Origin: an uncultured Oscillospiraceae bacterium
GTDB lineage: Bacteria > Bacillota > Clostridia > Oscillospirales > Oscillospiraceae
Assembly (NCBI GenBank): GCA_949841355.1
Contig: CATKZP010000003.1
Coordinates: forward strand, 1-64,000
DNA: 64,000 nt
Direction of reading: 5' to 3'
In this document: positions 1 to 6,052 of the stretch, piece after piece
Layout: the number at the start of each line of letters is the position of its first letter
Numbering within the stretch: position 1 is the stretch's first letter
Made by a program: the position numbers and the translations under genes
Notes under the pieces: generated by a model
Told to the model about the DNA's origin: nothing
Database searches by the model: none
What the model saw: only the letters and a program-made list of their open reading frames with translations

Positions 1-72
1 TGGGGCAATAAGAAGTACATGAACATGAAGCATCTGGAAACCGCTTTGGATGATCCTTCTATCGCCGGCTGA
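1..72 (+). CDS. C-terminal end of an unidentified protein (cut by window edge)
   Basis: An open frame runs from the first base to a TGA at 70-72 and gives 23 residues ending in DDPSIAG. It enters from outside the window, so neither its start nor its family can be read. It lies on the mobile-element side and faces a truncated gene on the opposite strand that ends eight bases further on. Too little is present to assign a function, and the frame could be fortuitous. Confidence 0.35.
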   Translation, partial: WGNKKYMNMKHLETALDDPSIAG

Positions 73-79
73 CCCATTC

Positions 80-232
80 TCATTGGAGACTGCTTCCCCT
101 TTTGCGCATAACTCTTGACACTACCTTGGCAAGCGTTTCTTTCAGCGCGACACATCGGGCATCGGCCTCGTTGTAGCCCCAGGGAAACTTCCTCGGACGA
201 TGGCCGGTGAACGCACAACACCGTTCAATCAT
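80..232 (-). pseudogene. Truncated SLOG-family (DUF1273-like) gene remnant
   Basis: Reading the minus strand from the ATG at 232 gives 50 residues, with CCAFTGHRPRKFPWGYNEAD near the N-terminus, then a stop at 80-82. The FTGHRP motif followed by a KF-WGY stretch is typical of the start of SLOG/DUF1273 proteins, nucleotide-sensing Rossmann-like proteins that often accompany clostridial mobile elements and are normally about 180-200 residues. Here the reading frame departs after about residue 41 and ends, so the glycine-rich core of the fold is missing. I read it as a decayed or rearranged copy. A functional 50-residue protein is possible but less likely. Confidence 0.5.
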
Positions 233-256
233 GGTAATCAGCCTCCGATCTCATTC

Positions 257-306
257 TTGGATATGGGGGTTATATCCCCTTAACATTGGAGATTATAACC
301 CCCATA
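257..306 (+). promoter_or_regulatory. Promoter and 13-bp inverted-repeat operator of the small HTH gene
   Basis: A perfect 13-bp inverted repeat, TATGGGGGTTATA at 262-274 and its complement at 294-306, is separated by 19 bases. A promoter-like pair TTGGAT (257-262) and TAACAT (281-286) with an 18-base spacer overlaps it, so the left arm sits between -35 and -10 and the right arm lies just past the expected transcription start. This layout fits an operator bound by the regulator encoded immediately downstream. The promoter is a consensus match by eye; the link to the regulator is inference. Confidence 0.55.
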
Positions 307-334
307 CTGATTGGTGTCAATCGGGGGTGAGGTC

Positions 335-538
335 GTGATTATTTTTGATAAGCTGTGGGATGTAATGAAAGCAAAAGGCGTTTCCACCTACCAGCTTCGA
401 GAGAAGTGCGGCATCGACAGCAAGACTGTCCGGCGTCTGCGGGCCAATGACAACATGGAAACAAAGACGCTGAACAAACTGTGCTCGGTGCTGGACTGCC
501 GCCTGGAGGACATCGCGGAATACGTCCCCGACGAATAA
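335..538 (+). CDS. Small Cro/C1-type helix-turn-helix regulator
   Basis: A 67-residue protein that is almost entirely an XRE-type DNA-binding domain: the recognition region reads STYQLREKCGIDSKTVRRLR, followed by a KTLNKLCSVLDC stretch typical of the second half of the domain. An in-frame TTG at 311 is possible, but GTG 335 is preferred because GGGGGTGAGG ends just before it. It follows a perfect inverted repeat at 262-306 overlapping a likely promoter, which suggests self-regulation. It belongs to the mobile element. The stop codon is inside the left arm of the first hairpin of the structured block that follows. Confidence 0.8.
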   Translation: MIIFDKLWDVMKAKGVSTYQLREKCGIDSKTVRRLRANDNMETKTLNKLCSVLDCRLEDIAEYVPDE

Positions 539-848
539 CAGCTCTACGGGTCTGCGGGTGCAGAAGCGTAGAGCTGTTGCCATTTTCGAGGCCGGTCAAT
601 ACAAGCCGCTTTTGCGGGTTGTATTGACACGGGCCGAGAAAATGGAGGGGGTTTCCAAAGGGGGACAATCCCCCTTTGGCACACGACTTTCGGAGAAAGT
701 CTAGTGTGTTATACCTTTTGCCCCGGCTGGTGCGGGAAAGGGGCGGCGCGATCTGGCGCAGACACTTTCCCGCACCAGAAAATCAGCCTGAGAAATGGAG
801 CGTCAGCAATCATTTCTCGGGCTGATTTTGGGAGGGGCGAAAGGTATA
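537..848. repeat. Block of nested inverted repeats (possible oriT, single-strand origin or structured RNA)
   Basis: This stretch without a gene is almost wholly made of stems: 537-548 with 567-578 (12 bp); 580-587 with 638-645 enclosing 595-604 with 619-628 (10 bp) and 606-609 with 614-617; 655-665 with 669-679 (11 bp); 680-684 with 704-708 enclosing 685-691 with 695-701; and an outer stem 710-718 plus 720-724 with 834-838 plus 840-848 that encloses two hairpins, 727-740 with 765-778 (14 bp, perfect) and 779-797 with 811-829 (18 of 19). None ends in a T-run, so these are not ordinary terminators. It lies between two convergent regulators in an element with a MobV relaxase. Origin of transfer, single-strand replication origin, recombination fold or non-coding RNA are all possible. 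The stems are directly seen; the role is unknown. Confidence 0.75.
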
Positions 849-936
849 TAAAGCCCCCGTCCCTCGTCCTCCGTCCCGCCGCAGCGGTGCTGGTGCTGCT
901 TGGAGCACACCCGCCCGGGTATGCGATGGGCAGCGC
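849..936. other. Non-coding remainder of the 539-936 gene-free interval
   Basis: GC-rich sequence between the last stem of the palindrome block and the stop codon of the minus-strand regulator. I see no promoter, terminator or further long repeat in it. An open frame crossing 704-1243 is not credible because it runs through the stems and has no family-like sequence. Confidence 0.4.
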
Positions 937-1758
937 TCAGCTATCCCCGGTATCGCCGCCCCCGGGCAGCGATTCAAAGGCAGAAAGTAACCCGCCCCGG
1001 AGGGCTGCTAAACCCTCTGCGTTCAGTCCTGCGCTGTACGCTGTGTGTACAATGGCATCCACAATCTGTTCCGGCGTGATGGCAGTCAATGGAACATCCT
1101 GCCCCTTTGTCAGTTCTGCCATCATCTGCCCGACAATCTCACTTGTGGCCGCTTTAACAGGCTCCAGGCTCGACCCGGCGTCCCGCTTCAGCTCCTTCAG
1201 AATGGTCATAAACGTGTTTTGGATTTTCGCCAGTTCCACTTGATGGGGTGGCGTCTTGGACAGCTTCACAGTGCGGGCCGCTTCTTTTATCGCTGCCCTC
1301 TGCCCGGAATCGGACTGTCCGGTACTCAAAAGAATATCGCTCATAGCGTCAAAAAGCTCGTTCTGCGCGGCTACCCCGGCGGCAAAAGTATCGTCCAGAT
1401 ATTGCGCGATCATCGCAGTCAGTAGGGAGAATTTCGGGTGTTCCAGCAGGCGGTTCACCACATCCGTGTTGACCCTGCCCGTGTAGAGGTTCCGTGCCGC
1501 CTGATCGGAAAGCCCCAGCGCTCCAATCTCATAATTCTTTCGGTCTGGGATGTCCGTCAGGCCCAGTAGGTAATCTGCGGAAACCTGGAACTCTCGAGCC
1601 AGTGCTGTCAGCACATCGCTGCCAACCTTCTGTGTCTGTCCTTTCTCCATACGCCCCAGCGTAGTGGCGTTGACGCCGATTTTCGCCGCCAGCTCCTCCA
1701 GAGTCATGTCCCGCCGCTCCCGGAGCCCGGTGATGCGCCGTCCAATCGCTTCAGACAT
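937..1758 (-). CDS. XRE-family transcriptional regulator
   Basis: A 273-residue protein. Residues about 5-65 form a Cro/C1-type helix-turn-helix domain: MTLEELAAKIGVNATTLGRM with a following VLTALAREFQVSADYLLGL segment. The remaining 200 residues are helical with no motif I recognise. An upstream in-frame ATG at 1878 exists, but ATG 1758 is preferred because GGGAGGGG lies directly before it. It diverges from the parB-like gene across about 200 bases and converges on the structured block. The position suggests control of element maintenance or transfer, which is inference. Confidence 0.8.
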   Translation of the reverse strand: MSEAIGRRITGLRERRDMTLEELAAKIGVNATTLGRMEKGQTQKVGSDVLTALAREFQVSADYLLGLTDIPDRKNYEIGALGLSDQAARNLYTGRVNTDVVNRLLEHPKFSLLTAMIAQYLDDTFAAGVAAQNELFDAMSDILLSTGQSDSGQRAAIKEAARTVKLSKTPPHQVELAKIQNTFMTILKELKRDAGSSLEPVKAATSEIVGQMMAELTKGQDVPLTAITPEQIVDAIVHTAYSAGLNAEGLAALRGGLLSAFESLPGGGDTGDS

Positions 1759-1807
1759 AACTTCCCCTCCCATCCTGTTGATTTTACCACAAGCCCACTT
1801 CAAAGAC

Positions 1808-1855
1808 CAGCCCGGAACCTGCATTTTTGCAGATTTTCCGGGCTGTGTTTTATTT
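1808..1855 (+). terminator. Hairpin with T-rich tail between divergent element genes
   Basis: CAGCCCGGAA at 1808-1817 pairs with TTCCGGGCTG at 1836-1845, enclosing CTGCA/TGCAG with a TTTT loop, followed by TGTTTTATTTT. It has the form of a rho-independent terminator reading rightward, although no rightward gene is seen immediately upstream. It may instead shield the parB-like gene from read-through or act as an attenuator. Confidence 0.5.
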
Positions 1856-1912
1856 TCTGGCTTTTCCGCCGGAATCAAGGGCTATAGACGTTTTTCCGTT
1901 ATATTGGAGTAC

Positions 1913-1927
1913 GCAAATAGAATTTGC
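1913..1927. promoter_or_regulatory. Short palindrome upstream of parB-like gene
   Basis: GCAAAT and ATTTGC flank three bases, 28 bases before the TTG start. The position between the divergent regulator and the parB-like gene suggests an operator, but the arms are only six bases, so this is tentative. Confidence 0.3.
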
Positions 1928-1954
1928 TAAATCAATTTGGGAGGTATCAAAGTA

Positions 1955-2824
1955 TTGCGTATTCCAATCAGTGAGATCAAAATCAACCCCGAACGGCGTA
2001 AGGCCGACCCGGCCCATATCAAGGAATTATCCAAAAGCATAGCCGATGTGGGCCTGCTCAACCCAATCACCGTCAACGAAGATCACACGCTCATCGCTGG
2101 CCTGCACCGCCTGGAGGCGGCACAGCTGCTGGGGTGGACAGAAATCGAGTGTACTGTGTGCGGGATCGACAGCATCCGGGCAGAACTGGCTGAGATCGAC
2201 GAAAATGTGATCCGCCGAAACCTGACCAACACAGAACTGAACGATCTGCTGGCCCGCCGGAAGAAGCTCTACGAAACCCTTCACCCGGAGACAATCGCCA
2301 GGAACCGCCCCGGCCATGTGAGCAATCATCAAGGTTCGAGCGACAAATTGTCGCCCGAATCCAAGGTAAAGTCTTTCGTGGAGGACACCGCCGAAAAGCT
2401 GGGCGTCTCCGCCAGAACAGTCGAGCGTCACCTATACCTGGCTGAACATCTGACACCGAAAGTCAGTGAAATTCTCAAGAAAATGGACAAACAGCCGCCC
2501 CGGTGTGAACTGATGAAGCTGGCCCGGTTGGAGCCAGGCCAGCAGGAGGAGTGCGCTGCGCTGTTTATGTCCGGCGAAATCAAATCGGTGGACACTTATT
2601 TGAAGCAGGGAAAGCTGGAAAACACCGAGACCGATGTTTCCTCATCTTTTGACGGCTTTATGGAAAGTTTAAGCCTGATCCTTAATGAAGTTGAACAGCT
2701 TTCCGCACTTTTAGCGGAAAATTCCGGTTTTACTGACGAGCAGAAGTCAACCGTCCAGACACAAGCGGCCAAACTGTATGAGGCGGCGGGCAGGCTGGCG
2801 GCACAGCTCGAAGATAGGCGGTGA
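1955..2824 (+). CDS. ParB N-terminal-domain protein of the mobile element
   Basis: About 289 residues. The N-terminus (LRIPISEIKINPERR, then ELSKSIADVGLLNPITV and LIAGLHRLEAAQLLGW) is a ParB/sulfiredoxin-fold domain, with the GxHRxxA-type nucleotide-binding motif. It is followed by a helix-turn-helix at about 145-175 (KLGVSARTVERHLYLAEHL) and a helical C-terminus. Such proteins in integrative elements are thought to act in stabilisation or as regulators. TTG 1955 is chosen because GGGAGGT lies nine bases upstream; TTG 1937 would place that site inside the gene. The TGA overlaps the next gene's upstream GTG, indicating co-transcription with the relaxase. Confidence 0.85.
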   Translation: MRIPISEIKINPERRKADPAHIKELSKSIADVGLLNPITVNEDHTLIAGLHRLEAAQLLGWTEIECTVCGIDSIRAELAEIDENVIRRNLTNTELNDLLARRKKLYETLHPETIARNRPGHVSNHQGSSDKLSPESKVKSFVEDTAEKLGVSARTVERHLYLAEHLTPKVSEILKKMDKQPPRCELMKLARLEPGQQEECAALFMSGEIKSVDTYLKQGKLENTETDVSSSFDGFMESLSLILNEVEQLSALLAENSGFTDEQKSTVQTQAAKLYEAAGRLAAQLEDRR

Positions 2825-2829
2825 GCACG

Positions 2830-3777
2830 ATGCAGAAACCGCAGTACGCCATTCTTCGCTTTGCCAAGTATAAGGGACCGGAGATCGGGCAGATCGAGGC
2901 TCACAACGAGCGCAAAAAGGAGAAATACGCCAGCAACCCCGATATAGATACCAGCAGGAGCCATCTCAACTTCCATCTTGTTCAGCCGGAGCGGAAGTAT
3001 CGGGCCGAGGCGGAGCGGCAAATCGCCCAGGCCGGGTGCCGCACCCGGAAGGACAGCGTTCGGGTGGTGGAGATGCTGGTGACAGCCAGCCCAGAGTTTT
3101 TCAAGGGCAAGAAGCGGGCTGAGGTACGGGCTTTCTTTGAGGAGGCCGTTCGTTTTATCGAAAGGCGGCAGCCGAAGGATACGATCATCTCCGCCGTGGT
3201 GCATATGGACGAGAAAACGCCTCATATGCACCTGTCCTTTATTCCGCTGACGAAGGATGGGCGGCTAAGCGCCAAGGACATTGTTGGCAACAAGAAAAAG
3301 CTGACATGGTGGCAGGACCAGTTCTGGAAACACATGGTCAGACGGTGGCCGAACCTGGAACGTGGCGAGAGCGCCAGCGAGACTGGCAGGACACACATCC
3401 CACCCCGGCTGTTCAAGGAGGCAGCCCACCTCAACCGCCAGCGGGATATGCTAATGAAGCTGCTGGGGGAGGTCAATCCGCTCAACGCCAAGAAGAAAAG
3501 TGCCGAGATTGAGGCGTTGCTGGAGCGGTATATCCCCGGCGTGGAGCGGATGCAAACGCAGATGAGGAAATACGATACCGCTTATAAAGCTCTCCGGGCT
3601 GAGAACGCCGAACTGAAAAAGCAAGTGGATTCCAGCAAAGAAAGCGTCAGGCACCGACTGGAGGTGTCTCAGCAGCTTCAAGAACTGGAGGACCTGCGCC
3701 GGACGGTAGACAACATCCCGCCGGAAATCTTGCAAGTGTATCGATCTGTTCCTAAATTTCAGAAGATTGAGAGGTAA
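2830..3777 (+). CDS. MobV/Pre-type relaxase (plasmid recombination enzyme family)
   Basis: Relaxase that would nick the transfer origin so that the element can be mobilised by a helper conjugation system. The N-terminal HNxR-type motif is seen in GQIEAHNERKKEKYASNPDI, and the metal-binding HxDExxPHxH motif in VHMDEKTPHMHLSFIP at about residue 130. A long predicted coiled coil follows from about residue 210, as usual for MobV. Length, about 315 residues, is in the shorter range of the family. ATG 2830 is preferred; GTG 2821 overlaps the parB-like stop and is the alternative. The arrangement with a large serine recombinase resembles Tn4451-type mobilizable transposons (TnpZ and TnpX). Confidence 0.9.
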   Translation: MQKPQYAILRFAKYKGPEIGQIEAHNERKKEKYASNPDIDTSRSHLNFHLVQPERKYRAEAERQIAQAGCRTRKDSVRVVEMLVTASPEFFKGKKRAEVRAFFEEAVRFIERRQPKDTIISAVVHMDEKTPHMHLSFIPLTKDGRLSAKDIVGNKKKLTWWQDQFWKHMVRRWPNLERGESASETGRTHIPPRLFKEAAHLNRQRDMLMKLLGEVNPLNAKKKSAEIEALLERYIPGVERMQTQMRKYDTAYKALRAENAELKKQVDSSKESVRHRLEVSQQLQELEDLRRTVDNIPPEILQVYRSVPKFQKIER

Positions 3778-3781
3778 TTGA

Positions 3782-5770
<1,989 letters not shown>

Positions 5771-5963
5771 CCCTCTGCGGTAATAGTTCCTTATTACCTT
5801 TAAGGCTTCCGTTTCCGGCTTTGCCGAAAACTGTACTCTGGTGAGAATTTCTTTGCGTGCCGCCTCTTTCCTACCGCCGCCGCGGGAAAGAGGCGGCAGC
5901 CGATCATAACGCCCGGCGCGGGCGTCCCGGGCCTTATAGGCAGCCCTCAAGAAAAATCTCCCA
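5771..5963. other. Probable right boundary of the mobile element
   Basis: No gene lies between the recombinase stop and 6053. The interval holds a 13-bp perfect inverted repeat, GCCGCCTCTTTCC at 5859-5871 with its complement at 5885-5897, around a GC-rich loop. By analogy with other large-serine-recombinase elements, the element-chromosome junction (attR or attL) should lie in this interval, before the promoter at 5964. The exact crossover cannot be placed without the other end of the element or an empty site. Confidence 0.4.
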
Positions 5964-5992
5964 TTTACAAATAGGCCGTCCTGTGTTAACAT
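5964..5992 (+). promoter_or_regulatory. Candidate sigma-A promoter of the glycosidase gene
   Basis: TTTACA (5964-5969) and TAACAT (5987-5992) are 17 bases apart, about 60 bases before the start of the next gene. It is the first chromosomal-type signal after the element. Confidence 0.5.
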
Positions 5993-6052
5993 AACGTTTA
6001 GTCGTTTCACGCAGACAGCAAGCAAAGCTCTCGGCAAAGACAGGAGGAACTC

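Follow-up and report, generated by a model that had tools for sequence, protein, structure and literature searches.

Genetic setting

The window, by which we mean the whole 64-kb stretch of DNA analysed, comes from an uncultured member of the Oscillospiraceae and begins at base 1 of its contig. Domain searches place a small HTH gene (347-538, + strand) directly before a dense array of inverted repeats (537-848), at which the gene ends, and an HTH regulator gene on the opposite strand (937-1758, -) between the oriT treated below and the mobilization genes. Further along, on the + strand, lie a gene for a ParB-like protein (1937-2824, domain searches) and a MobV relaxase gene (Mob_Pre, 2830-3777; PF01076, 182 bits; MobV family match). 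They are followed on the same strand by a gene for a large serine recombinase (4024-5754; domain searches on 4111-5751), the presumed integrase of the element. The succession of convergent HTH regulators, ParB-like gene and MobV gene is as the preliminary description gave it.

The relaxase is assigned to MobV by Pfam, by NCBIfam and by similarity to the structure of the relaxase MobM (4lvi), with which it aligns over 181 residues (E 2.3e-23), including the HNER and HxDExxPHxH stretches. The co-occurrence of a MobV relaxase and a large serine recombinase corresponds to the plan of the Tn4451-type mobilizable elements, a likeness in gene content as these are portrayed in the available parts of PMC5704250. 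This suggests that the setting is an integrative mobilizable element of gut Clostridia encoding a MobV relaxase. The relaxase gene lies 2.1 kb downstream of the predicted nick and on the same strand, and its product is presumed to act at the oriT of the array.

A perfect sigma-70-like promoter (12 of 12, spacer 17) reads leftward at 292-320 on the - strand. Close to it we noted by eye an inverted repeat at about 260-306, perhaps the operator of the small HTH regulator.

The hairpin array

Inverted repeats fill positions 537-848, and 79% of these 312 bases are paired in the predicted fold. As single-stranded DNA the stretch 530-860 folds at -130.7 kcal/mol, compared to -51.2 +/- 4.7 kcal/mol for 100 dinucleotide shuffles (z -17.0; none of the 100 as low), and as RNA it reaches z -17.8. 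The stems of the array are real, and the earlier impression that dense stems occupy nearly all of the 312 bases is confirmed by the paired fraction, the z-value and the shuffles. The number of stems, given as five, needs correction, as it omits a long-range closing stem that starts at the predicted nick and surrounds hairpins D and E.

All parts of the array are given on the + strand. Hairpin A (537-578), which starts right after the stop codon of the HTH gene, and the two-part hairpin B (580-645) were delimited by inverted-repeat search and predicted fold; both are variable companions. Hairpin C (655-679, inverted-repeat search) is flush with the left arm of IR3 and leads into the oriT core 5' of the nick (680-708). 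The post-nick cloverleaf (710-848) was recognised from inverted repeats, folds, covariation and a survey of 51 oriTs. It is closed by a helix (710-724 with 834-848) enclosing hairpins D (727-778) and E (779-829), the two largest of the array, whose limits follow from inverted repeats and the RNA fold.

Two other identities were rejected. Coding DNA finds no support, as the three ORFs that overlap the array have no Pfam match (up to E 0.1), in line with the preliminary description, which saw no credible coding here. The same applies to a known RNA family, with no Rfam match up to E 1 in window positions 1-6000.

It is very improbable that the stems are ordinary bidirectional terminators between the convergent regulators. 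Hairpin A does begin at the stop codon of the HTH gene, and a terminator role could still hold for this hairpin alone; however, nothing resembling a terminator turned up in the array when 250-2000 was scanned, and the conserved fold goes together with the nick motif. There is also far more structure than termination needs, a point already made in the preliminary description and upheld by the z-value of the DNA fold.

The probable oriT core and its predicted nick

Window positions 680-716 read CACACGACTTTCGGAGAAAGTCTAGTGTG/TTATACCT, where the slash marks the predicted nick, and resolve into CACAC GACTTTC GGA GAAAGTC TA GTGTG / TTATACCT. The arms of IR3 are CACAC (680-684) and GTGTG (704-708), and the IR1 hairpin is formed by 685-691 and 695-701. 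This core was delimited by inverted repeats, a pattern match, comparison with pMV158 and alignments. The oriT of pMV158 (MOBV1, MobM) is printed as GCACACACTTTATGAATATAAAGTATAGTGTG/TTATACTTTAC, with the slash at the G/T nick (PMC5863519, as far as its available text goes). Both sites have the IR1 hairpin, the IR3 base CACAC/GTGTG ending at the cut, the nick context TAGTGTG/TTATAC, which is exact at 702-714 of the window, and the same orientation relative to the relaxase gene. From the identity of this context we predict the nick at 708/709. A 16-base nick-context pattern has one match in the 64-kb window (1 mismatch), where 0.03 would be expected.

By contrast, the IR2 that spans the nick in pMV158 is not kept in the window: compared by eye with the oriT printed in that source, AAAGTCTA and TATACCTTT fail to pair through. 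Instead, the right side of the nick pairs with an arm located about 50-300 bases downstream.

The array is very probably an oriT of the MobV (pMV158) kind. The preliminary description had offered a function as single-stranded DNA, with an oriT among the candidates, or a structured RNA. The former is strongly supported by the pMV158-type core, the linkage to MobV and the covariation around the nick. As regards the core, a MobV/pMV158-type oriT, the statement in that description that no named family clearly matches was wrong. The statement may be true of the post-nick cloverleaf, a fold of which we found no description in the accessible parts of the open-licence literature searched, itself weak evidence of absence.

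A closing helix anchored at the predicted nick

The closing helix of the cloverleaf, TATACC...GGTATA, has as its first base the second base 3' of the predicted nick. Its position was surveyed in a set comprising every exact TAGTGTGTTATAC from 134 loci (142 minus 8 plasmid controls). From these 93 instances two were dropped for short downstream sequence and near-duplicates were removed, leaving 51 non-redundant oriTs, a set that supersedes a 39-oriT helix survey and strand count. The helix score, for which a threshold of 11 was set, permitted G-T pairs and up to two mismatches.

In 44 of the 51 oriTs an outermost long-range helix that reaches this threshold begins with the second base after the nick; other start points occur in at most 29. 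Starts at -2 to 0 mostly represent this helix again, entered from a mismatched position, and we read the smaller peaks at 17-22 as fitting the start of hairpin D. The observed helix is reached by no more than two of 100 dinucleotide shuffles of the downstream sequence in 39 of the 51, and by more than two in the other 12. If a nearer far arm and any outer pair are allowed, 45 of the 51 attain the threshold. The remaining six (L056, L070, L076, L087, L125, L136) lack a closing helix of this score; L070 has only a short hairpin, TATACC-TATAGGTATA, directly after the nick.

The folded post-nick units are 52-299 bases long and have two or three top-level branches in 36 of 45 cases and a single one in nine. 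In four of the 45 (L003, L009, L055, L128) the z-value of the enclosed part is not below -2 (mononucleotide shuffles). No sequence in the inner hairpins is common to every family: a GGAAAGG-like stretch fits 27 of the 45 units for one pattern, and the others look unrelated.

Two related loci display rearranged post-nick units. One of them, L009, has its unit duplicated exactly in tandem (147/147 bases; nick at 1564/1565), and its relatives L010, L012, L014 and L015 have one copy. In our reading the breakpoint of the duplication coincides with the nick within 2 bases, as if cutting and rejoining had made it. In L011, a near-duplicate of L009 that was set aside, the post-nick fold breaks into different sequence 85 bases after the nick.

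The plasmid controls differ in this respect. In eight pMV158-type plasmid oriTs, hand-picked among the matches listed (598 matching records in total; those chosen are from Lactobacillaceae, Lactococcus, Planococcus and Priestia), between 26 and 100 of 100 shuffles reach the downstream closing helix, so that it is better than shuffles in none of the eight. MobV is annotated in three of these stretches and a short plasmid recombination protein in one; neither gene is annotated in the other four, in a gene table that is incomplete. With IR2 gone in the window and the downstream helix absent from the eight plasmids, the right side of the nick has thus switched from pairing with the left flank to pairing with an arm far downstream. 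The distance to the relaxase gene likewise differs, being within about 100 bases in pMV158-type plasmids as opposed to 2.1 kb in the window and 1.2-4.9 kb in 42 relatives.

Covariation and the presumed folded strand

The preliminary description had proposed covariation as a test of the stems, and those around the nick pass it. Among 32 distinct closing-arm pairs, 93.8% of the cells are paired, compared to a mean of 77.2% and a maximum of 81.0% in 500 row shuffles, and 71 cells are changed on both sides, where the shuffles average 19.7 and never exceed 32; these shuffles, like those used below for the close set, ignore relatedness. In a close set of 15 sequences, 95.6% of the cells of the post-nick structure are paired, a value that falls to 38-48% when the partners are slid by 1-3 columns. 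Here both sides have changed in 18 of 56 pairs, hairpin E accounting for 11, and none of 500 shuffles reaches the post-nick values of this set. The close-set alignment is poor upstream of hairpin C, and pairs were counted from C onward only. The pre-nick part (C, IR1 and IR3) has 99.4% of its cells paired in the 15 sequences. Five of its 23 pairs have changed on both sides, a number reached by 6 of 500 shuffles, and one of five measures, further pair types, is not above the shuffles (273/500).

Lone internal mismatches within stems defined by Watson-Crick pairs only were counted as a test of strand. The 200 bases after the nick have 34 G-T and 7 A-C mismatches (expected 55% G-T, binomial p 0.0002), occurring in 22 and 4 sequences, respectively, and the 200 bases before the nick have 33 and 8 (p 0.002; 20 sequences vs 2). 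A control stretch further downstream has one G-T and two A-C, too few to weigh. The first count on 39 oriTs gave 26 vs 6 over 220 bases downstream, 35 vs 18 over 350 bases downstream and 30 vs 16 over 300 bases upstream, and the post-nick part of the close set has 34 G-T cells vs 18 A-C, with 17 and 5 pairs showing each type. Near the nick the bias is clear; it weakens when wider stretches are counted. This excess of G-T over A-C mismatches suggests that it is the + strand, predicted to be the transferred one, that folds.

The strand bias tells more strongly against a role as duplex only than against an RNA. We regard it as unlikely that the stems act as double-stranded DNA, i.e., as palindromes or cruciforms to which the HTH, ParB-like or relaxosome proteins would bind. 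The HTH and ParB-like genes are adjacent, and in ICESt3 an inverted repeat 68 bp after the nick-site repeat is a relaxase binding site (PMC9371924, available portion). However, such a role predicts equal numbers of G-T and A-C mismatches, contrary to the counts on both sides of the nick (less so in the other cuts), and the sequences of the inner hairpins turn over strongly while their pairing stays.

A structured RNA, regulatory or part of the relaxosome and transcribed from left to right across the oriT, is in our view quite unlikely. The strong RNA fold (z -17.8) would suit it, the G-T bias would also fit an RNA of the + strand, and a small RNA encoded next to oriT is required by SGI1 (PMC9299015, as far as available). 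It is made less likely by the anchoring of the closing helix, whose end keeps its position relative to the nick from family to family. Rfam is without a match, the upstream neighbours and hairpins vary among relatives, and a promoter scan of 250-2000 gave no site within the array and, upstream of it, one weak site on the + strand (280-308, 9 of 12).

Hairpins upstream of the nick

Structure on the upstream side is widespread but its outer parts are variable. A hairpin of score 7 or more ends within 2 bases of IR3 in 41 of the 51 oriTs, and the 200-base upstream stretch folds at z -3 or lower in 38 of them (mononucleotide shuffles). Units of the TCCAAAGGGG type are present in several copies in some elements, with four each in L006, L008, L072, L103, L126 and L136. 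Counterparts of hairpin B are visible by eye in several close relatives, and L034 has another hairpin in place of A.

L033 is nearly identical to L031 in the stretch shown and is without hairpins A and B. Loss of stems from an otherwise identical element, which the preliminary description had named as evidence against its reading, was thus found for the outer hairpins only, a part of the array. As A and B are missing from this near-identical element, they are apparently not essential and may be dispensable or fast-changing companions. The ends just upstream of position 2864 in L033 suggest a deletion of A and B at a short repeat, either real or an effect of the assembly.

Relatives and linkage to MobV

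When 300 genomes of the family were searched, that of the window among them, 50 had DNA similar to this region. Among the matches listed from other genomes, mostly hairpin C, IR1 and the nick are covered, and only G275 reaches the far end of the query. A plasmid similarity search with positions 300-1800 gave only short matches, in four records. A phylum-wide sample with stricter filters yielded a match to the core covariance model in 4 of 398 genomes, again including that of the window, which has one core match.

The linkage to MobV was followed in 80 loci retrieved with only the MobV protein as query, the best of 369 that were confirmed. The core model (52 sequences) matches 42 of these best 80 of 369, and in the 42 loci the exact core is on the MobV strand, upstream of the gene by 1,173-4,927 bases. 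Because the model was built partly from MobV-fetched loci, the independent point is limited to the fact that a relaxase-guided search brings in the oriT site at all.

The other 38 of the 80 loci have no core match within the fetched DNA, which spans at least 4.2 kb upstream of MobV in 17 of them. Fourteen of these 17 genomes have a core match elsewhere in the genome, and the three others (those of L043, L048 and L083) have none anywhere. In eight of the 17 (L046, L047, L050, L052, L061, L092, L099, L110) the core would lie on the contig and strand of MobV, 5.7-8.8 kb upstream, a placement deduced from contig number and coordinates. The record of L060 has two core matches opposite to the MobV strand (contig C47, 97-968, -; contig matched by number).

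Several records place this kind of site in other surroundings. The same oriT core occurs within about 500 bases of the aminoglycoside resistance gene aadE in two plasmids, one of Lactobacillus amylovorus and one of Pusillibacter faecalis (L143, L144), suggesting that this type of oriT is also carried along with resistance genes and has spread as far as a lactobacillus. Five short phage records named Bacteriophage sp. (MT836845, MT837045, MT839795, MT837643, MT837704) match the core and may be mobilizable elements labelled as phages. L059 is an element of clostridial type on a contig binned as Akkermansia, perhaps a binning error. The interval between oriT and MobV in L078 (2422-4387), where the window has its ParB-like gene, holds a primase zinc-finger gene and a DUF5906/D5-like gene.

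Comparison with known transfer origins

Parts of the arrangement have parallels in other mobile elements, here compared with the accessible text of the respective reports. IMESag-rpsI is likewise an integrative mobilizable element with a MobV relaxase and a G/TT nick; by contrast, its oriT is a 42-bp site with IR1-IR3, its ssoA is located behind the mob gene, and the text available to us describes no post-nick cloverleaf (PMC5090054). The oriT of ICESt3 (MOBT) resembles the window in having an inverted repeat downstream of nic that is required for transfer, but it belongs to another relaxase family, and its repeat, 68 bp beyond the nick-site repeat, is neither nick-anchored nor multi-branched as described there (PMC9371924). 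ICEBs1 has a folded region downstream of oriT, sso1, with three predicted stem-loops. This region, likened here by its description, differs in lying between nicK and ydcS and in not starting at the nick; it is functional and related in sequence to plasmid sso (PMC4595007).

Proposed function

We consider it probable that the array is the oriT of an integrative mobilizable element encoding MobV, with a second fold anchored at the nick, the nicking itself being a prediction. Our best reading of the sequence comparisons is a variant of the MobV oriT in which the ends of the transferred strand would fold on both sides of the nick and serve cutting and rejoining by the relaxase. In the excised circle the relaxase would cut between 708 and 709 and become joined to T709, and the transferred strand would leave with TTATACC first. 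In the single-stranded state both of its ends would fold: hairpin C and IR1/IR3 would form at the trailing end, up to the 3' G, and the cloverleaf at the leading end, where only the 5' T precedes it. Between the two helices a one-base gap would be left, in which the scissile bond would lie. MobM is reported to shift the hairpins of its oriT and thereby expose the nick (PMC5863519, in the part available). The main service of such a fold would be in relaxase processing, namely presenting and resealing the nick and keeping the ends recognisable after transfer, where the resealing is conjecture. An additional role of the cloverleaf in priming the second strand is likely.

That priming is instead the chief role is a somewhat doubtful alternative. 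The cloverleaf would then be a single-strand origin or folded single-strand promoter, at which the RNA polymerase of the host or a primase starts the complementary strand after transfer and recircularisation, and it would lie next to the nick for the reason that it must enter first. The conserved motif of ssoA is TAGCGT. None of the 51 post-nick stretches has it; in the pre-nick stretches it occurs 4 times out of 51 on the strand to be transferred, about the number in shuffled sequence, and TAGCG is absent from both strands of window 530-860. A single-strand origin also need not start exactly one base after the nick, as 44 of the 51 do, and the inner hairpins have no sequence common to all families. 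The ssoA of IMESag-rpsI follows the mob gene and not the nick, according to the accessible text (PMC5090054). On the other hand, the cloverleaf is at the leading end, the strand bias fits a function on one strand, and in at least one relative, L078, the interval from oriT to MobV includes a primase zinc-finger gene. The functional sso of ICEBs1, with its three predicted stem-loops downstream of oriT, is a further precedent (PMC4595007, as available).

More tentatively, relaxase processing and second-strand synthesis might be served together. It is possible, though less likely than not, that these sites represent a distinct architecture of conjugative origins, with the scissile bond in the one-base gap between two flush helices and a nick-anchored cloverleaf of 50-300 bases, at the leading end of the transferred strand, as a single-stranded DNA device, e.g., as a landing for resealing and a start for the second strand.

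The pMV158-type oriT core is already known as a kind, and the nick-anchored cloverleaf is the new part. Sites of this kind are common in gut Clostridia, as the 50 of 300 genomes of the window's family indicate. A conserved fold at a fixed place beside the predicted nick would be a precise mark by which to recognise their oriTs, and it makes a testable claim on the role of the leading end of the transferred strand. If the cloverleaf is a device for resealing or priming, it would be a new part of the mechanism of conjugation.
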